Source: Salegentibacter sp. R32 (GTDB lineage Bacteria; Bacteroidota; Bacteroidia; Flavobacteriales; Flavobacteriaceae). Taken from it: DNA of 64,000 bases. Every line of letters begins with the position of its first letter. The first letter of the stretch is position 1. Below are positions 8,429-54,824 of the stretch, piece by piece. The notes beneath the pieces were generated by a model. It did not search any database, was not told the DNA's origin, and saw only the letters and a list, made by a program, of their open reading frames with translations. A program made the position numbers and the translations under genes. Location of the stretch: positions 1-64,000 of the forward strand of contig NZ_RXOM01000068.1 in the NCBI RefSeq assembly GCF_008692195.1, read 5' to 3'.

Positions 8429-8452
8429 TTTGGTGTTGCCAAAAACCAACCC

Positions 8453-8552
8453 TGTCTAAATAAATTTTAGACATTCCTCCTTGGGAAAGAGGGAAGCTGT
8501 TCAGAAATGAAAAAAAGTAAGATTAAAGTTCCCCTTCTTTTAAAAAAAGAGT
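8453..8552. repeat. Hairpin-rich intergenic repeat after the MotA/TolQ-like gene
   Basis: The gap between the two convergent genes contains the inverted repeat TGTCTAAA/TTTTAGACA (about 8454-8473), then a CCTCC/GGGAAAGAGGGAA stretch and a CCCCTTC/GTTAGGGGAC pairing near 8529-8560. The arrangement of small hairpins loosely resembles the composite repeats at 48-54 kb. It may also serve as a terminator for the isoaspartyl peptidase gene. The evidence is structural only. Confidence 0.4.
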
Positions 8553-46925: not shown

Positions 46926-46940
46926 TTTAGGCATGTTAAA

Positions 46941-46958
46941 TTCCTGCGTAGGCAGGAA
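46941..46958. repeat. Palindromic repeat TTCCTGC-GTAG-GCAGGAA
   Basis: A 7-bp perfect inverted repeat 16 bases after recO. A near-identical copy lies at 53991-54008, right after the helicase gene. It may work as a terminator-like hairpin; the core is known to me from dispersed repeats in several bacterial groups. Confidence 0.6.
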
Positions 46959-47087
46959 TCTTCAAAAGAGTTCCAATAAAAGAATATTTAAGGGTTTATG
47001 AGCCCCTCACGCAACACCTCTTAAAATTCCGCTAAGATTTAAGCAGTTTTCGATATCCAAGAACGCTTTTTAGTAAATTCAATCTTT

Positions 47088-48101
47088 ATGAAAACACCTC
47101 TACTCGTTTTTAACCAAAAAGGAATTTACTGTGAAGCCGCCGATGTCTATTTAGACCCGTGGAAACCGGTCAAAAAAGCCATCATTTCGCACGGTCACGC
47201 AGATCATTCTCGTTGGGGACATCAACAATACATTACGCATCACACCAATGTGCCAATTATCAAACATCGTTTAGACGATATTTCTGTGACCGGAAAAGCC
47301 TGGAACGAAACTTTTACCATTAATGGAGTTAAATTTTCGCTTCATCCTGCCGGGCATATCGTGGGTTCCTCACAAATTCGAGTAGAACATAAAGGAGAAG
47401 TTTGGGTGTTTACCGGCGATTATAAAACCGAAGACGATGGTTTAGCCGTTCCTTACGAAGTGGTGAAATGCCATACGTTTATTACCGAATGCACATTTGG
47501 TTTGCCCGCTTTCAAATGGCTTCCGCAGCAACAGGTCTTTAACGATATTAATAATTGGTGGCAACAAAATCAAGATGATGGCAGAACCTCGATTCTGTTT
47601 GGCTATTCTTTAGGGAAAGCACAACGTCTTTTAAAACATTTAGACACTTCCATCGGTAAAATTTATACGCACGGCGCCGTTGAAAATATGACAGAAGTGG
47701 TCCGAGAAATTGCCGATTTACCTCCAACCGAAAAAATTACAAGAGATACCAAAAAAGAAGACATCAAAGGTAATATTGTGATTGCGCCGCCAAGCACACA
47801 CGGCTCTCCGTGGATCAAGAAAATGGTGCCTTACGTTACAGCTTCTGCCAGCGGTTGGATGACGTTTCGTGGAGCGCGTCGTCGTCGAGCGATCGATAAA
47901 GGTTTTGTACTTTCCGACCATTGTGATTGGCAAGGTTTACTCACTTCAATTAAAGCAACAGGACCAGAAAAAGTAATTTGTACGCACGGCTACACCGATA
48001 TTTTTTCTCGCTTTTTAGCAGAACAAGGCTATGATGCCAGAACCGAGCAAACGCAATATGAAGAAGAAAATGCCGAGCAGACAAGTAAAGAAAAAGATTG
48101 A
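47088..48101 (+). CDS. Ligase-associated MBL-fold DNA exonuclease
   Basis: A 337-residue metallo-beta-lactamase/beta-CASP nuclease of the ligase-associated DNA-damage-response set. The metal motif HGHADH (35-40) and later motifs TECTFG, AGHIVGSSQ and SDHCDW are complete. The family is predicted to process DNA ends before ligation. It is the first of four repair genes in the region; the DNA ligase gene follows 138 bases later with a composite hairpin repeat between them. The role in repair is from family knowledge. Confidence 0.92.
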   Translation: MKTPLLVFNQKGIYCEAADVYLDPWKPVKKAIISHGHADHSRWGHQQYITHHTNVPIIKHRLDDISVTGKAWNETFTINGVKFSLHPAGHIVGSSQIRVEHKGEVWVFTGDYKTEDDGLAVPYEVVKCHTFITECTFGLPAFKWLPQQQVFNDINNWWQQNQDDGRTSILFGYSLGKAQRLLKHLDTSIGKIYTHGAVENMTEVVREIADLPPTEKITRDTKKEDIKGNIVIAPPSTHGSPWIKKMVPYVTASASGWMTFRGARRRRAIDKGFVLSDHCDWQGLLTSIKATGPEKVICTHGYTDIFSRFLAEQGYDARTEQTQYEEENAEQTSKEKD

Positions 48102-48117
48102 AGATATTTTAATAAAA

Positions 48118-48228
48118 CCACTCCGTCAAAACAAGTTTTGACACTTCTCCTTATTAAGGAGAGGAACTTTTTAAGATTCCTTCCCTAACTTAGGGAAGGT
48201 GGCATTCCGAAGGAATGACGGAAGGGTA
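48118..48228. repeat. Composite hairpin repeat, copy 1
   Basis: Two inverted half-units. The first runs CTCCGTC, hairpin AAAAC-AAGTTTTG, then a CTTCTCCTT/AAGGAGAG hairpin; the second runs TTCCCTAACTTAGGGAA, GGTGG, hairpin CATTCC-GAAGGAATG, ACGGAAGGG. It lies between the exonuclease and ligase genes. Similar copies are at 49836, 50850, 51373, 54051 and 54131. Confidence 0.8.
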
Positions 48229-48239
48229 AAACAAAAGAA

Positions 48240-49835
48240 ATGAAGCAATTTGCAGAACTCATACGAACTTTAGATAGCACCAACAAAACCACGCTCAAGG
48301 TTGAAGCACTTGCACATTACTTTAAAACTGCAAGCGATAAAGACAAAGTCTGGACTATTGCTATTCTTTCTCACCGTCGTCCGCCAAGACCGGTAAATAC
48401 AAGATTAATGCGAGAATGGGCTTCAGCGTTTTCTAAAATTCCGTTATGGTTGTTCGAAGAGTCGTATCATATTGTGGGCGATTTAGCCGAAACAATTGCG
48501 CTTGTGATTCCGCCTTCAGAAGAATCTTCAGAGAAAAGTTTAAATCAGTTCCTGCAAGAAATTATTGAACTTAAAGCACGTTCAGAAGAAGAGAAAAAAG
48601 AGTATTTATACGAAAGTTGGTTCAGCTTAAATTATTATGAACGTTTTGTATTTACCAAACTCATTACCGGTAGTTTTCGCATTGGCGTAAGTCAGAAATT
48701 AATGACACGAGCTTTATCGAAAGCCACAGAAATCGATGAAGATATTCTCGCTTATAAACTGATGGGAAATTGGGATCCTGCAACCACCACATTTACCGAT
48801 TTGGTCTTAGAAGAAAAACCGGAAGATTACCTTTCTAAACCTTATCCGTTTTATTTGGCCTATGCGATTGAAGACGAACCGCAAAGTTTGGGTGATGTAA
48901 AAGAATGGGCAGCCGAGCATAAATGGGACGGTATTCGCTCGCAAGTGATTATTAGAAATGGAGAGTTATTTGTTTGGAGTCGTGGTGAAGAATTGGTGAC
49001 CGATAAATATCCGGAGTTTGAAAAATTTATCAACCTTATTCCCGACGGGACGGTGATCGACGGAGAGATTTTACCTTTTCCGAAGAATGAAATCGGTACG
49101 TTTAAAGATTTACAAACCCGAATCGGCCGAAAAAATATCACCAAAAAACTTTTAGAAAAAACGCCGGTTATTCTAAAAGCTTACGATCTTCTAGAATGGA
49201 AAGGCGAAGATATTCGAGAAAACGCCTATCAAAATCGAAGAGAAATTCTAGAACAACTTTTTACTGAAGTAGCTTCGGAAGAGATTCCGTTACATTTATC
49301 ATCAACGATTTCTTTTCAAACTTGGGATGAGGTCGCTAAAGAACGCGAACGCTCACGAGAAGTAAAATCGGAAGGATTAATGCTGAAGCGTTGGGATTCT
49401 CCTTACCTCGTCGGAAGAAAAAAAGGCGATTGGTGGAAGTGGAAAGTCGATCCGCTCACCATCGATGCAGTGTTAACCTACGCAATGCGCGGTCACGGAA
49501 GGCGAAGCAACTTGTTTACCGATTATACCTTCGGACTTTGGGACGATGAGAAAGAAGAATTGGTCACTTTTGCCAAAGCATATTCCGGACTTACAGACGC
49601 TGAGTTTAGAAAAGTAGACGCGTGGATCAAGAAAAATACACTTGAGCGTTTTGGTCCGGTGCGAAGCGTAACGCCACATCACGTGTTCGAAATTGCTTTT
49701 GAAGGAATTGCAGAATCGACCCGACATAAAAGCGGAGTCGCGACTCGTTTTCCTCGAATTTTACGTTGGAGAAAAGACAAAAAAATTGAAGAAGCCAATA
49801 CCTTAGAAGATTTAAAAGCATTAATTCCGAAGTAA
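48240..49835 (+). CDS. ATP-dependent DNA ligase (ligase-associated DDR module)
   Basis: A 531-residue ATP-dependent DNA ligase. The nucleotidyl-accepting lysine is Lys228 in KWDGIR; later motifs IDGEILPF, EGLMLKRWDSPY and 'WWKWKVDPLTIDAVLTYA' are intact. An N-terminal helical DNA-binding domain (1-200) precedes the adenylation and OB-fold domains. Length agrees with the bacterial ligases paired with the Lhr-type helicase, MBL nuclease and PdeM. It is not LigD: no polymerase or phosphoesterase domain and no ku gene are present. Confidence 0.94.
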   Translation: MKQFAELIRTLDSTNKTTLKVEALAHYFKTASDKDKVWTIAILSHRRPPRPVNTRLMREWASAFSKIPLWLFEESYHIVGDLAETIALVIPPSEESSEKSLNQFLQEIIELKARSEEEKKEYLYESWFSLNYYERFVFTKLITGSFRIGVSQKLMTRALSKATEIDEDILAYKLMGNWDPATTTFTDLVLEEKPEDYLSKPYPFYLAYAIEDEPQSLGDVKEWAAEHKWDGIRSQVIIRNGELFVWSRGEELVTDKYPEFEKFINLIPDGTVIDGEILPFPKNEIGTFKDLQTRIGRKNITKKLLEKTPVILKAYDLLEWKGEDIRENAYQNRREILEQLFTEVASEEIPLHLSSTISFQTWDEVAKERERSREVKSEGLMLKRWDSPYLVGRKKGDWWKWKVDPLTIDAVLTYAMRGHGRRSNLFTDYTFGLWDDEKEELVTFAKAYSGLTDAEFRKVDAWIKKNTLERFGPVRSVTPHHVFEIAFEGIAESTRHKSGVATRFPRILRWRKDKKIEEANTLEDLKALIPK

Positions 49836-49956
49836 CCACCCCAACTTCACTAGTGAAGTTTTCCCCTCCTTGAAAAGGAGGGGAGCAAAGAAAAGTTCCT
49901 TCCCTAATTTAGGGAAGGTGGATTCTGAAGCGATACCGAAAGAAGACGGAAGGGTA
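49836..49956. repeat. Composite hairpin repeat, copy 2
   Basis: It starts at the base after the ligase stop codon. The first half-unit has a different but still perfectly paired hairpin (AACTTCAC/GTGAAGTT) followed by CCCCTCCTT/AAGGAGGGG. The second half-unit is TTCCCTAATTTAGGGAAGG with a diverged inner hairpin and GACGGAAGGG. Variable stem sequence with preserved pairing suggests that structure is what is conserved. Confidence 0.78.
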
Positions 49957-50030
49957 AAAATCATTCACTTAAATCCTAACTAAAACCTTGAAAACACTTA
50001 CTTTTAATGCTTCAATAAAATAAATAGACA

Positions 50031-50849
50031 ATGAAAAAAATACTTTATACTGCAGCAATTGTAAGTTTACTCTTTGCTTGTAAAAATGAAGAAAAAAAGC
50101 AAGATTCAACTGAAAAACAGAACCAGGAAGAAGTTTATGAAGTAAACGAAACAGCTTCTAATAGCTCTGAAGAAAAAGAGAATCATCAACTCAGAAGTAT
50201 TTCCAAAGCTCAGGTTGCACCAGAAATTGACGGACTTGCAAACGATACGGTTTGGCAAAATTTAGAATGGTACCAACTTGACCAAAAGTGGGTAGGCGAA
50301 GATTATTCCGAAGAAGATTACCAAGGAAAATACAAACTCACTTGGGACGAAGAAGCGATTTACATTCTAGCTGAAATTCAAGACGATATTTTAATCGATC
50401 AATACGAAGATCCTTTTAAACAATGGTGGGATGACGATTGTGTAGAGGTTTTTGTAGATGAAGATAATTCTGGAGGGGAGCATCAATACGGTCACAATGC
50501 TTTTGCTTATCACGTGGCGCTTGACGGGAATGTGGTCGATTACGGTCCCGATAAAAAACCACATTTGTATAATGATCACGTAAAATCGGCACACAAAACC
50601 GAAGGAAACACGACAACTTGGGAGCTGAAAGTAAAAATCTATCCAGACACCTATCAAGATGAAAATAATAGCATAGAACCGATACAACTTTCCGCAGGAA
50701 AAAACGTAGGATTTGCCTTAGCGTATTGCGACAACGATACTAGCAAAACCCGTGAAAACTTTATTGGTTCAGTGTATGTTCCCGGGGAAGATAAAAACCA
50801 AGGCTGGATCAATTCCGATATTTTTGGGACTTTGCATTTAGAAGAGTAA
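50031..50849 (+). CDS. CBM9-like carbohydrate-binding lipoprotein
   Basis: A 272-residue exported lipoprotein with lipobox FAC at Cys17 and a 40-residue acidic linker. Residues about 58-270 form a CBM9-like/DOMON-type beta sandwich, recognised by 'DGLANDTVWQNLEW', YKLTWDEEAIYILAEIQDD and 'WWDDDCVEVFVDEDNSGG'. It probably binds sugar or glycan ends at the cell surface; no catalytic residues are apparent. It separates the ligase and helicase genes of the repair module and has no functional tie to them, so it may be an insertion carried between repeat copies. Confidence 0.85.
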   Translation: MKKILYTAAIVSLLFACKNEEKKQDSTEKQNQEEVYEVNETASNSSEEKENHQLRSISKAQVAPEIDGLANDTVWQNLEWYQLDQKWVGEDYSEEDYQGKYKLTWDEEAIYILAEIQDDILIDQYEDPFKQWWDDDCVEVFVDEDNSGGEHQYGHNAFAYHVALDGNVVDYGPDKKPHLYNDHVKSAHKTEGNTTTWELKVKIYPDTYQDENNSIEPIQLSAGKNVGFALAYCDNDTSKTRENFIGSVYVPGEDKNQGWINSDIFGTLHLEE

Positions 50850-50951
50850 AAACCTCCCCTAACCCCTCCTTTTTAAGGAGGTGAGTAAAAAAAGTTCCTT
50901 CCCTAAATTAGGGAAGGTGGATTTTTCTGATAAGAAAAATTCGGAAGGGTA
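50850..50951. repeat. Composite hairpin repeat, copy 3
   Basis: It starts at the base after the CBM9 gene stop codon. The first half-unit is a CCTCC/GGAGG hairpin variant. The second half-unit has TTCCCTAAATTAGGGAA, GGTGG, a hairpin TTTTTCTGATAAGAAAAA and TCGGAAGGG. A solo half-unit follows at 50962-50995. Confidence 0.75.
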
Positions 50952-50961
50952 AATATCAAGT

Positions 50962-50995
50962 AAAGGTGACATTCCGTAGGAATGACAGAAAGGTT
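50962..50995 (-). repeat. Solo half-unit of the hairpin repeat, directly upstream of the DUF559 gene
   Basis: AAAGGTGA, hairpin CATTCC-GTAGGAATG, ACAGAAAGGT: the second half-unit type on its own. It ends 12 bases before the ATG of the DUF559 gene, and its reverse complement matches the half-unit that begins 2 bases after that gene's stop. Confidence 0.72.
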
Positions 50996-51007
50996 CAAAT
51001 AGCTAAA

Positions 51008-51370
51008 ATGAAAAATAAACCAATTCATAATAGAAAACATTTAGAATCTTTCCGAAAAGAATTAAGGGAGAATTTAACTCCTGCGGAAGCTTTTCTTTGG
51101 AAGCATTTGCAGAGAAAACAATTGAAAGGAAGAAAATTCAGAAGACAACATAGTATAGAAAATTTCATTGTGGATTTCTATTGCGCTCAAGAGAAATTAA
51201 TCATTGAATTAGATGGCGAAATTCATAAAAATGCTACTGCTGAAGAGAAAGATAGAAAAAGGGATCAAAGATTAGAGGAGCTAGGATTTAAAGTTTTACG
51301 TTTTGAAAATAAAATGGTTTTTGATTTTTTACCGTCTGTACTAAAAGAAATAGAAGATAATTTTGAATAG
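51008..51370 (+). CDS. DUF559 endonuclease (Vsr-like PD-(D/E)XK)
   Basis: A 120-residue nuclease-fold protein. The ATG at 51008 is chosen; the in-frame GTG at 50966 lies inside a repeat half-unit and would give repeat-encoded residues. Family segments are NRKHLESFRKELRENLTPAEA, LKGRKFRRQHSI, then the active-site core 'FIVDFYCAQEKLIIELDGEIH' with Asp and Glu of the PD-(D/E)XK/Vsr type, and 'KVLRFEN' at the end. Inverted half-copies of the hairpin repeat flank it on both sides, so it may be the enzyme that spreads the repeat (inference). The biochemical function of DUF559 proteins is poorly known. Confidence 0.88.
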   Translation: MKNKPIHNRKHLESFRKELRENLTPAEAFLWKHLQRKQLKGRKFRRQHSIENFIVDFYCAQEKLIIELDGEIHKNATAEEKDRKRDQRLEELGFKVLRFENKMVFDFLPSVLKEIEDNFE

Positions 51371-51372
51371 AA

Positions 51373-51484
51373 ACCTCTCCGTCAAAACAAGTTTTGCCAC
51401 CTCTCCTTCAAAAGGAGAGGAGCTTCTAGGGTTCCTTCCCTAATTTAGGGAAGGTGGCATTCCGAAGGAATGACGGAAGGGTAA
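51373..51484. repeat. Composite hairpin repeat, copy 4 (most regular copy)
   Basis: It begins 2 bases after the DUF559 stop. First half-unit: ACCTCTCCGTC, hairpin AAAAC-AAGTTTTG, CCACCTCTCCTT, closed by AAGGAGAGG. Second half-unit: TTCCCTAATTTAGGGAAGGTGG, hairpin CATTCC-GAAGGAATG, ACGGAAGGGT. The outer ends (CCGTC and GACGG) are themselves complementary, so the whole element can fold into one branched structure. Confidence 0.82.
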
Positions 51485-51515
51485 ATACAGATTCTGAAGT
51501 AAAGTAATAAACAAT

Positions 51516-53990
51516 ATGAACAAAAAAGAGCTTTTAGCCATTGCAGAAAATTGGTTTGCCCGGCAAGGTTGGAAGCCCTTTCCTTTTCAGAAAAAAACTT
51601 GGGATGCTTATCTTAAAGAAAAAAACGGACTCCTAAACGCACCTACCGGAAGTGGAAAAACGTACGCACTTTGGGTGCCGATCGTTTTAGAATACCTAAA
51701 GCAAAATCCAGATTATAAAACCAAACCTCAAAAAGGTTTAAAAGTCATTTGGATCACGCCGCTTCGAGCACTTTCTGTAGAAATTGCGCAAGCGGCTACT
51801 CGTTTTGCAGAAGAAACCAATTCGGGATTAACAGTGGGGATTCGCACTGGCGACACTTCTCAAAAAGAACGCTCGGCACAAAAAAAGTCGATGCCCGATT
51901 TGCTAATTACCACGCCAGAGAGTTTACATTTATTACTTTCTTCAAAAAACTACCCGAAACTTTTTAAAAATCTAAATGCGATCGTCGTCGATGAGTGGCA
52001 CGAGTTGCTAGGCAGTAAACGTGGCGTTCAAACAGAATTGGCACTTTCTCGCTTAAAAACAGTTTCAAAAAATTTAAAAATTTGGGGTATTTCGGCCACC
52101 ATCGGTAATCTTCCGCAGGCGCAAGAAGTTTTGTTGGGAGCAGAAAGTGAAGCACTTCAAAATTCAACATTAATCAAAGCGAATATTCAGAAACAAATAG
52201 AAGTGAAATCGATTATTCCGGAGTCGATGGAAAAGTTTCCGTGGCGCGGTCATTTGGGTTTGCATTTGTTAGATGAAGTGATCCCGATTTTAAACAATTC
52301 AAAAACCACGTTAGTTTTTACCAATACACGTTCGCAATGTGAATTGTGGTTTCAAAAATTAATGAATAAGTATCCCGAATTTGCCGGAGAAGTGGCGATG
52401 CATCACGGAAGCATCAATAAAGAAACGCGACTTTGGGTAGAGCAAGCGATTAGAAACGAAAGTCTAAAAGCAATTATTTGTACGTCGAGTTTAGATTTAG
52501 GTGTCGATTTTGCTCCGGTAGAAACCATTATTCAAATTGGCGGTCCAAAAGGCGTTGCTCGTTTTTTACAACGTGCCGGGAGAAGCGGCCACCAACCGGG
52601 CAAAGCCAGCCGAATTTACTTTTTACCCACGCACGCCATAGAACTTATCGAAGCGGCTGCACTCCAGAAAGCGGTCGAGAAAAAAGCGGTGGAAGATCGT
52701 ATTCCGTATTTACAGAGTTTCGACGTTTTGGTGCAGTATTTAACGACTTTGGCAGTTTCCGACGGATTTTATCCTAAAGAAATTTACCCTGAAATAAAAT
52801 CGACCTTCTGTTTTCAAGGTTTAACCGAAGACGAGTGGCGTTGGTGCTTAAATTTTATCACGAAAGGAAGTCAAAGTCTGCAAACCTACGACGAATATAA
52901 AAAGGTTGAAATTGAAGACGACGGTAAGTTTAAAGTGAACCATCGAGGGGTTGCGATGCGTCATCGGTTACAGATCGGGACAATTGTAAGTGATGCGATG
53001 CTGACCGTAAAATATGTAAAAGGCGGTTTTATTGGCACTATCGAAGAATGGTTCGTTTCAAAATTAAAACCTGGAGACGTATTCACGTTTGCCGGCAGAA
53101 ACCTAGAGCTCTCCAGAATTAAAGGCATGCAAGTTTTAGTAAGAAAGTCGAAAAAGAAAACTGCGAAAGTGCCAAGTTGGATGGGCGGCAGAATGACTTT
53201 TTCTGCACAAATGAGTGAATTACTTCGAGAAGAATTATACGAAGCCGCAGAAAGTATCGCCTCTAATTCAAAGAAGAAAAGTGCCGAGTTGACAGCACTT
53301 CAACCTATTTTAGAACGCCAGCAATTAGAATCGATCATTCCAAAACAAAACGAATTTCTTATCGAAACTTTTAAAACTCGCGAAGGTTATCACGCTATTT
53401 TTTATCCGTTCGAAGGGCGTTTTGTTCACGAAGCTTTGGGCAGTTTGTTGGCGTATCGCATTAGTTTGTTGTCGCCAATTTCCTTCAGCATTGCGTTTAA
53501 CGATTATGGGTTCGAGCTGCTTTCAGACCAAGAGATCGATATGCAACAAGTCTTAGATAACGATTTGTTTTCCGCAGAATTTTTGATGGACGATCTTTAT
53601 AAAAGTCTAAACGCCACCGAAATGGCTCGCCGAAAATTTAGAGATATTGCCGTCGTTGCCGGGTTGGTTTTTACCGGTTATCCCAACAAGTTGGTTAAAA
53701 GCAAACATCTACAATCAAGCTCTCAGCTACTGTTTGATGTATTTCGAGATTACGAAGACGATAACTTATTATTTCAACAAGCGTTTCGAGAAACCTTTGA
53801 ACATCAGTTAGAAGAAGGCAGATTGCGGTTGGCATTAGAGCGAATTCATCAGCAAAAAATCGTTTGGAAATCCTGCCAAAAACCCACTCCGTTTTCATTT
53901 CCTATCATCACCGATCGATTACGTGAAAAGCTCTCTTCAGAAAAATTAGAAGATCGTATTCAACGTATGCTTAAACAACTCGAAAAATAA
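51516..53990 (+). CDS. Ligase-associated DEXH-box helicase (Lhr-core type)
   Basis: An 824-residue superfamily 2 helicase. Walker A APTGSGKT (42-49), the DEWH box at 159-162, motif III 'SATIGN', and motif VI QRAGRSGHQPG are intact. The C-terminal Lhr-core winged-helix and beta-barrel region follows (about 440-824). It belongs to the ligase-associated DNA-damage-response module with the MBL nuclease, ATP ligase and PdeM. Length fits the family. A copy of the hairpin repeat lies upstream, and another palindromic repeat begins directly after the stop codon. Confidence 0.95.
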   Translation: MNKKELLAIAENWFARQGWKPFPFQKKTWDAYLKEKNGLLNAPTGSGKTYALWVPIVLEYLKQNPDYKTKPQKGLKVIWITPLRALSVEIAQAATRFAEETNSGLTVGIRTGDTSQKERSAQKKSMPDLLITTPESLHLLLSSKNYPKLFKNLNAIVVDEWHELLGSKRGVQTELALSRLKTVSKNLKIWGISATIGNLPQAQEVLLGAESEALQNSTLIKANIQKQIEVKSIIPESMEKFPWRGHLGLHLLDEVIPILNNSKTTLVFTNTRSQCELWFQKLMNKYPEFAGEVAMHHGSINKETRLWVEQAIRNESLKAIICTSSLDLGVDFAPVETIIQIGGPKGVARFLQRAGRSGHQPGKASRIYFLPTHAIELIEAAALQKAVEKKAVEDRIPYLQSFDVLVQYLTTLAVSDGFYPKEIYPEIKSTFCFQGLTEDEWRWCLNFITKGSQSLQTYDEYKKVEIEDDGKFKVNHRGVAMRHRLQIGTIVSDAMLTVKYVKGGFIGTIEEWFVSKLKPGDVFTFAGRNLELSRIKGMQVLVRKSKKKTAKVPSWMGGRMTFSAQMSELLREELYEAAESIASNSKKKSAELTALQPILERQQLESIIPKQNEFLIETFKTREGYHAIFYPFEGRFVHEALGSLLAYRISLLSPISFSIAFNDYGFELLSDQEIDMQQVLDNDLFSAEFLMDDLYKSLNATEMARRKFRDIAVVAGLVFTGYPNKLVKSKHLQSSSQLLFDVFRDYEDDNLLFQQAFRETFEHQLEEGRLRLALERIHQQKIVWKSCQKPTPFSFPIITDRLREKLSSEKLEDRIQRMLKQLEK

Positions 53991-54008
53991 TTCCTGCGAA
54001 GGCAGGAA
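53991..54008. repeat. Palindromic repeat TTCCTGC-GAAG-GCAGGAA
   Basis: Second copy of the 7-bp inverted repeat seen at 46941-46958, starting at the base after the helicase stop codon. Confidence 0.6.
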
Positions 54009-54050
54009 TCTAAAAACCTGATTTAATTAATTCATTTTAATCGCCTTTAG

Positions 54051-54184
54051 TTTCTTCCCTAATTTAGGGAAGGTGGGTTCTGCAGCGTTAGCAAAAAAAC
54101 TTGGAAGGGTTAAATTAATATTATTCTTAAAAGTTCCTTTCCTTATAAAGGAAAGGTGGCATTCCGTAGGAATGACGGAAAGGT
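54051..54184. repeat. Two further copies of the hairpin repeat (partial)
   Basis: The first fragment (54051-54110) has TTCCCTAATTTAGGGAAGGTGG and a degraded inner hairpin ending GGAAGGGTT. The second (54131-54184) has TTCCTTTCCTTATAAAGGAAAGG, TGG, hairpin CATTCC-GTAGGAATG and ACGGAAAGG. Both are in the second half-unit orientation. They fill part of the 378-base gap after the helicase gene, which contains no ORF. Confidence 0.72.
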
Positions 54185-54196
54185 TTAGAAAAATTT

Positions 54197-54299
54197 GAGC
54201 GTTTCCCTTCGGGTCGGGCTATTCGTTACAATTCCTCGTAAGTTTTCGCTAGCGCTACAACTTACTGCGGGATTTTCACTGCTATCCCTAACGCAAAAA
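54197..54299. repeat. Dispersed GC-richer repeat with inverted ends
   Basis: This stretch runs from GAGCGTTTCCCTTCGGGTCG to CTATCCCTAACGC, with terminal GCGTT/AACGC pairing. It contains CGCTAGCGCTACAACTTACT and is less AT-rich than its surroundings. From memory, similar 'gggtcgggctat...tatccctaacgc' units are scattered in flavobacterial genomes. Only this copy is in the window. Confidence 0.5.
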
Positions 54300-54368
54300 G
54301 CATGTTAACAAGAATACATTTCAACCACCTATTTTCTATCTTAGCTTTCTAAAATCAAATCTATTTGT

Positions 54369-54824
54369 ATGAAAAATTTAGTTTATATCTGTTTTGCGAT
54401 CTTTATGTTTAGTTGTAATTCAGCAAAAAATACGCAACATATGGCGCCAAAAGTAATTTCTGAAGGTAACTTATTCGGTAGCGGGAGTGAAGGTTTAATG
54501 CAACAGAATACGGTGATCACTAATGAAACCGAGTGGAAAGAATTTATGATGAGGTTAAATGCAACCAATGAAACCATTAAAAAAGATCAAGTTTCAGAAA
54601 TCGACTTTGATGAACAAAATGTAATTGCCATCATTGACAAACAACGTAACACTGGCGGACATAAAATTGAAATCGCAGAAACTTATACCCAAAACGGAAT
54701 TGTTTATTTCACCGTCAAAAAAACACATCCTGAAGGTATGGCAACCAGCGTGATGACGCAGCCTTATTATATAGCAACCATTCCTAAAACCAAACAAGAA
54801 ATAGAATTTAAAGAGGCGGAATAA
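54369..54824 (+). CDS. PrcB-like lipoprotein
   Basis: A 151-residue exported lipoprotein with lipobox FSC (Cys16). The C-terminal part (about 55-145) fits the PrcB_C domain, named after a subunit of the dentilisin protease complex: 'NETEWKEFMMRLNAT', DFDEQNVIAIIDKQRNTGGHKIEI and the final 'QPYYIATIPKTKQEIEF'. The function in flavobacteria is unknown. It lies 4 bases before the pdeM start and may be co-transcribed with it, though it is not a usual member of the repair module. Confidence 0.78.
   Translation: MKNLVYICFAIFMFSCNSAKNTQHMAPKVISEGNLFGSGSEGLMQQNTVITNETEWKEFMMRLNATNETIKKDQVSEIDFDEQNVIAIIDKQRNTGGHKIEIAETYTQNGIVYFTVKKTHPEGMATSVMTQPYYIATIPKTKQEIEFKEAE

Follow-up and report, generated by a model that had tools for sequence, protein, structure and literature searches.

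DUF559 nuclease genes and triplex-motif repeats as a probable mobile element family

In several phyla, DUF559 genes occur together with one type of inverted, palindromic repeat far more often than control genes do, in line with the original prediction that flanking repeats would be commoner at these genes than at control genes. We consider it likely that the two belong to one family of mobile elements, with triplex-motif repeats spread by a nuclease of Vsr/EDxHD type and gene-free composites as derivatives. The system had been proposed to be REPIN/RAYT-like: a similar way of working is retained, but membership is not, as the enzyme is not a RAYT and the repeat is nearer to BoxC/PIT/TM elements. 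Taken part by part, we hold with good confidence that the DUF559 gene and its surrounding repeats make up one mobile family, the nuclease is on balance probably the mobilising enzyme, and its recognition of a triplex is rather doubtful. Three features described below had gone unseen at first: the clustering of composites, the mirror pyrimidine blocks, and DUF559 domains inside leuS and ileS.

The DUF559 locus and its repeats

In the window, the whole 64-kb stretch of DNA analysed, a DUF559 gene (PF04480; 51008..51370, + strand; Pfam E 8.6e-34) encodes a 120-aa protein predicted to be a PD-(D/E)XK, Vsr/EDxHD-like nuclease. It lies between genes for an ATP-dependent DNA ligase (48240..49835, + strand; TIGR04120, E 1.3e-191) and a ligase-associated DEXH helicase (51516..53990, + strand; TIGR04121, E 0). 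A complete composite repeat begins at 51373, 2 bases past the DUF559 stop, exactly as first described. Its left half-unit (51373..51423, + strand) and right half-unit (51431..51482, − strand) score 64.2 and 59.4 bits with R1, a covariance model built from 21 half-units of the window and the flanks of related DUF559 genes, both copies being themselves R1 seeds.

Upstream of the gene, an unstranded composite (50852..50950; R1 23.9 and 33.9 bits) consists of a + half without hairpin 1 (50852–50886) and a − half (50894–50950). Just 5' of the gene stands a solo half-unit (50963..50994, − strand), comprising hairpin 1, tag, and tail only and 88% identical to 51451–51482. Its place before the ATG had been recognized correctly, but the gap is 13 bases measured from 50994, not 12 bases from 50995. 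The half-unit build first described likewise needs correction for this solo copy, in which the tag reads CTGTC, the tail reads GTCACC, and the second hairpin is missing; it is absent from the R1 matches in the window.

Further R1-matched, unstranded composites lie 5' (48117..48227) and 3' (49835..49955) of the ligase gene, and two right half-units lie 3' of the helicase gene (54050..54184, − strand). A CBM9-like gene (50031..50849, + strand; Pfam CBM9_1, E 3.4e-40) is located between two composites and is possibly a passenger. Composites thus cluster around the DUF559 gene. A scan for pyrimidine-arm hairpins (5' arm all C/T, perfect stem ≥ 7, loop 2–10) returned nine in the 64 kb, all at 48179–54156 and within 2.9 kb of the gene, and 11 of the 12 R1 matches at E ≤ 1 fall at 48117–54184, R1 being seeded partly from the same window. 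The remaining R1 match is weak and lies far from the cluster, at 8448–8497. Rfam returned no family at gathering score over 47500–54500. Short intergenic ATTCCTGCG...GGCAGGAATC palindromes resembling CGTC-type REPs occur at 46940–46960 and 53990–54010 and represent a second repeat family.

At least 17 R1 matches were found in the window's own genome, with up to 19 candidates scored. The copies that could be placed in this genome are largely local: five of the six R1 copies placed among the matches listed, and five of the nine placed by BLAST, are local.

Association with DUF559 genes across lineages

Of 94 sampled DUF559 genes, 88 had a pyrimidine-arm hairpin no more than 300 bp away, compared with 0/24 Y1_Tnp (RAYT/IS200-type) and 0/26 GIY-YIG genes. 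The positive loci include 19/20 named DUF559 genes from Flavobacteriaceae and close kin, 27/27 further Flavobacteriaceae genes, 30/30 Pseudomonadota genes, and 12/17 genes of other lineages (seven other Bacteroidota, two Clostridia, one Gallionellaceae, one Geobacteraceae, and one Actinomycetota genome). No hairpin was present within this distance at the other five of the 17 distant loci (Deinococcales, Flavisolibacter, a cyanobacterium, Neomarinimicrobiota, and one Clostridia) or at locus L051. Hairpin density at 500–1000 bp from DUF559 genes was at least 12-fold below that at 0–250 bp. These counts exclude L013 and L014 (the window's gene and a repeat of L048) and L038 (contig end), together with 6/30 Y1_Tnp and 4/30 GIY-YIG control loci cut by contig ends.

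The covariance model gave a similar picture, with 160 matches at E ≤ 0.5 in 30 Flavobacteriaceae DUF559 loci and at least one match at E ≤ 0.01 in 29 of them, some R1 seeds being derived from these same loci. R1 matched none of 30 GIY-YIG loci, the sole match of that run being weak and beside a leuS-borne DUF559, and none of 30 Y1_Tnp loci, on which RAYT was rejected as driver of the repeats.

We also used a model-free measure, namely a repeat common to the upstream and downstream flanks with a score ≥ 25. By this measure 26/37 named DUF559 genes share a repeat between their flanks, against 1/156 for the remaining ORFs in these loci; 15 of 400 mismatched DUF559 flank pairs also reach this score. 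Sharing was found for 15/28 further Flavobacteriaceae DUF559 genes versus 2/28 Y1_Tnp genes, for 9/17 further distant genes, and for 9/29 Pseudomonadota genes. We left out ten loci that duplicated named ones, L118 and two Y1_Tnp loci because one flank was shorter than 60 bases, the duplicates L119 (of L076) and L123 (of L070) from the distant set, and L173 from the Pseudomonadota set. Loci are not fully independent, because some share a genome or contig (e.g. L036 and L061).

The association extends to whole genomes. Among 299 Flavobacteriaceae genomes, R1 was present in 41/44 with the close DUF559 clade (bits ≥ 112) and in 26/255 without it (Fisher 5e-29), and at least five TM patterns occurred in 29/72 Pseudomonadota genomes with DUF559 (E 1e-15) versus 6/177 without (p 8e-13); both p-values are too small, since the genomes are related and the statistics ignore kinship. 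R1 scans scored up to 19 candidates per genome, and with this depth the clade genomes G177, G259, and G267 gave no match. The TM pattern fits one variant and is missing from 27/72 Pseudomonadota DUF559 genomes; read backward as a control, it still finds matches in some genomes (e.g. G366, G370, and G451). Presence of Y1_Tnp correlates weakly with R1 (37/105 against 30/194 genomes, p 1e-4).

The expectation that repeat-bearing genomes also carry DUF559 did not hold throughout, an outcome named in advance as refuting the idea unless such genomes had lost the gene. While 15 of the 26 R1-bearing genomes without the close clade have another DUF559 match, 11 have none at E 1e-5, and two of the six TM-rich Pseudomonadota genomes without DUF559 have 73 and 95 TM patterns. 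DUF559 is patchily distributed among genomes and can be present in several matches per genome (nine in G300, eight in G302, and eight in G336). The most dispersed copies were seen in G094 (L141, L143–L149, and L151–L155), where an element of ∼0.3 kb bears two triplex-like half-units; as proof of mobility these are weakened, because by eye they appear nested in copies of another repeat.

Half-unit anatomy and relation to known repeats

Each half-unit reads, in order, ∼ACC, pyrimidine block 1, hairpin 1, CACC, pyrimidine block 2, a short loop, and a complementary purine block, and a composite is a half-unit, a spacer, and an inverted half-unit. In the R1 seed alignment 92.1% of cells pair and 70 cells change on both sides, with pairing dropping to 46–61% when partners are shifted by 1–3 columns. 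Because the seeds were picked with the fold in view, they do not prove it independently. Around Flavobacteriaceae DUF559 genes, with every hairpin read on both strands, the mirror match of block 1 was longer than its direct copy 111 times and shorter 22 times (n = 237 readings). The corresponding counts were 37 vs 20 in Pseudomonadota (n = 125) and 14 vs 8 in distant loci (n = 50), the latter a weak excess. Half-units thus carry a pyrimidine block, its purine complement, and often a mirror block on one strand, the arrangement of a triplex motif.

Judged by its sequence, the half-unit fits better among the triplex motifs of the BoxC/PIT/TM kind than among REPINs. According to the available part of the survey by Holder et al. 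2015 (PMC4666352), BoxC/PIT/TM elements are laid out as pyrimidine block, loop, purine block, loop, and mirror block, the E. coli motif has been shown to form a triplex in vitro, and no mobility activity is reported near E. coli TM sites. The present repeats resemble these elements in block layout, intergenic placing, and the occurrence of some inverted pairs. What the present analysis adds is the DUF559 link, the in-frame units, and a hairpin within the second loop.

CGTC-tagged REPs, which seem to have no transposase of their own according to the accessible portion of Di Nocera et al. 2013 (PMC3733652), share with the half-unit a CGTC tag, a hairpin, and a CCA-like tail. The half-unit differs in its variable tag, free stem sequence, and second hairpin with mirror block. 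The 21 seeds depart from the full pattern (CGTC, an 8–9 bp stem starting with AT, a 4–5 nt loop, and a CCA tail) in having stems of other composition and a second hairpin, and identity with CGTC-REPs was dropped because tag and stem vary and a second hairpin with mirror block follows.

REPIN/RAYT systems consist of small palindromes in inverted pairs, a gene flanked by them, and gene-free copies. Inverted palindromic pairs, a flanked gene, and gene-free copies are found on both sides of the comparison, but the flanked gene here is DUF559, a PD-(D/E)XK family, and not a Y1 (HUH) transposase. The claim that the DUF559 gene is flanked by inverted palindromic units was borne out in the window, at related loci, and in leuS and ileS. 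Among the nearest half-units at R1 E ≤ 0.01, the tag faces the gene in 37/44 (20/22 upstream and 17/22 downstream, by reading the matches), so that the DUF559 gene sits between two composites; the opposite orientation was seen at L049 and L018. Tandem repeat arrays adjoin the gene at L048 (steps of ∼180 bp) and L157 (∼200 bp).

Insertion sites, the nuclease, and alternative readings

Six Mesonia genomes (the window and L043–L047) have a DUF559 gene between ligase and helicase, with varying surroundings. L046 (M. aquimarina) and L047 (M. oceanica) lack the composite 5' of the ligase gene, and these two and L044 have no half-units 3' of the helicase gene. Three of the six (the window, L043, and L044; not L045, L046, or L047) carry the CBM9-like gene at this position. 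Comparison of empty and filled sites, which had been suggested as a check, revealed both states between related species. Two genomes of the window's genus (G053 and G273) have neither a DUF559 nor an R1 match and show a ligase–helicase junction without DUF559; the junction is empty in G285 and filled in its genus mate G074, and is empty in G054 and G031 and filled in G144 and G257. As judged from these comparisons, the pattern is compatible with gain or loss alike.

The two other strong DUF559 domains of the window's genome (L009 and L011; contigs C19 and C68, outside the window) lie in frame inside leuS and ileS, and the DUF559-bearing leucyl- and isoleucyl-tRNA synthetase genes are both above family cut-offs. 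By eye, these inserts have a hairpin motif at each end, inverted and with block 1 outermost, so that the smallest unit seen is a half-unit, the nuclease gene, and an inverted half-unit, 445 bp long in leuS. Their end motifs face the opposite way from the nearest half-units of most intergenic loci, which can be reconciled if the intergenic gene lies between whole composites.

The leuS site is filled in two of six Mesonia genomes, empty with a short linker in two, and occupied by another repeat in two. Occupied and empty alleles of one conserved site, the sign looked for in a homing element, therefore coexist at leuS in Mesonia. One of the two filled Mesonia is M. oceanica, which has the insert of the window's genome; two Salegentibacter are empty, and a third Salegentibacter and Gillisia are filled. 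By coordinates, DUF559 is found at this linker in at least 13 of 156 leuS genes from scattered lineages, the variable linker being replaced rather than cleanly interrupted. No target-site duplication could be called at either the exo-lig or the leuS sites. Other in-frame inserts occupy the same linker in L243, L250, L255, L256, L261, L266, and L269, several of the GTCATTCCGA...TCGGAATC kind, and from such sequences the leuS linker looks like a hot spot for repeats in Flavobacteriaceae.

The protein itself is predicted, from its profile and modelled structure, to be a PD-(D/E)XK, Vsr/EDxHD-like nuclease. Its AlphaFold2 model (mean pLDDT 90.2) matched 3hrl, a relative from N. gonorrhoeae (Foldseek E 1.5e-7), the homing endonuclease I-Bth0305I (3r3p, E 9.7e-5), and, weakly, Vsr (1cw0, E 0.03), and a profile match to I-Bth0305I was also obtained (E 2.5e-5). 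Across 35 DUF559 sequences, the 14 invariant columns include residues T24, E27, D56, H73, D82, and R85, and family profile and fold agree on a DUF559 protein of the Vsr-like PD-(D/E)XK kind.

The E. coli member of the family, YcjD, had been assigned earlier to the PD-(D/E)XK superfamily, according to the part of that work available. In E. coli K-12 the end of ycjD is overlapped by a degenerate TM-type repeat, and a further TM-type copy, with the TTA second loop, follows 166 bp downstream of the gene. A sequence of 51 bases flanking ycjD in a different E. coli has matches in 4861/5426 genomes, at a median of 16 places. Flanks of other Pseudomonadota DUF559 genes (e.g. L163, L165, and L176) also carry BoxC/PIT/TM-kind sequence.

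The likeness to I-Bth0305I raises the alternative, in our view an unlikely one, of a selfish homing gene that targets the repeat or a site beside it, with the repeats spreading otherwise and giving only flanking homology. Besides the profile and fold match, the occupation of the leuS linker in scattered lineages and its polymorphism within Mesonia would fit such a gene. I-Bth0305I is deposited as a mobile-intron protein, whereas the DUF559 gene here has triplex-motif ends. Against the homing reading, some link between enzyme and repeat is called for by gene-free composites at positions that are plain in L046 and L047, and by the flanking of most sampled DUF559 genes, by eye, with their lineage's own repeat variant.

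It is very improbable that the nuclease is instead a host repair enzyme that resolves folded repeats and was gained together with them without moving them. The weak fold resemblance to the repair enzyme Vsr points that way, as does the greater rearrangement of TM loci in E. coli described in the available text of Holder et al. 2015 (PMC4666352), but the presence of up to nine DUF559 matches in a genome, the patchy distribution, and the in-frame inserts in leuS and ileS argue against it. Least credible, and disfavoured, is a bystander role for the nuclease beside repeats that would be REPs of the RAYT/IS200 type or ordinary terminators: the repeats are palindromic and mostly intergenic, resemble CGTC-type REPs in tag and tail, and correlate weakly with Y1_Tnp across genomes, but no hairpin accompanies any of the 24 Y1_Tnp or 26 GIY-YIG genes, a place in frame inside leuS and ileS is unexpected for terminators, and earlier work, as cited in the accessible part of Holder et al. 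2015 (PMC4666352), did not find promoter or terminator activity in PIT elements.

We therefore return to mobilisation by the DUF559 nuclease as the preferred reading. The nuclease would recognise the folded end motif, perhaps in single-stranded DNA, or an empty target, and make a nick or break at the site, after which repair could copy the unit or composite into it. Gene-free composites would then be non-autonomous derivatives. Recombination between repeats would account for tandem arrays, for repeats at either flank of the gene, and for a passenger gene enclosed by composites. The sequence comparisons gave no sign of cutting, transposition, or target duplication, and we weighed three points against mobilisation: some repeat-rich genomes have no DUF559 gene, junctions are not clean, and the G094 copies are nested.

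A broader generalisation is more tentative: DUF559 nucleases might define a phylum-spanning class of minimal mobile elements with triplex-forming ends, whose folded motif is recognised, which insert between genes and in frame in essential genes, and whose gene-free derivatives are the BoxC/PIT/TM repeats, including those of E. coli. In the titles and abstract openings of the literature on DUF559 or ycjD, preprints and most subscription papers aside, none concerned these repeats. Two surveys, as far as their available text shows, left a similar gap, with no mobility gene found near the E. coli triplex repeats (Holder 2015) and CGTC palindromes apparently lacking a dedicated transposase (Di Nocera 2013). 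A candidate enzyme for triplex-motif repeats that is present in E. coli K-12 as ycjD makes the question directly testable. Mobilisation by DUF559 nucleases would offer a possible role for this uncharacterised protein family, and would explain the in-frame inserts in tRNA synthetase genes.
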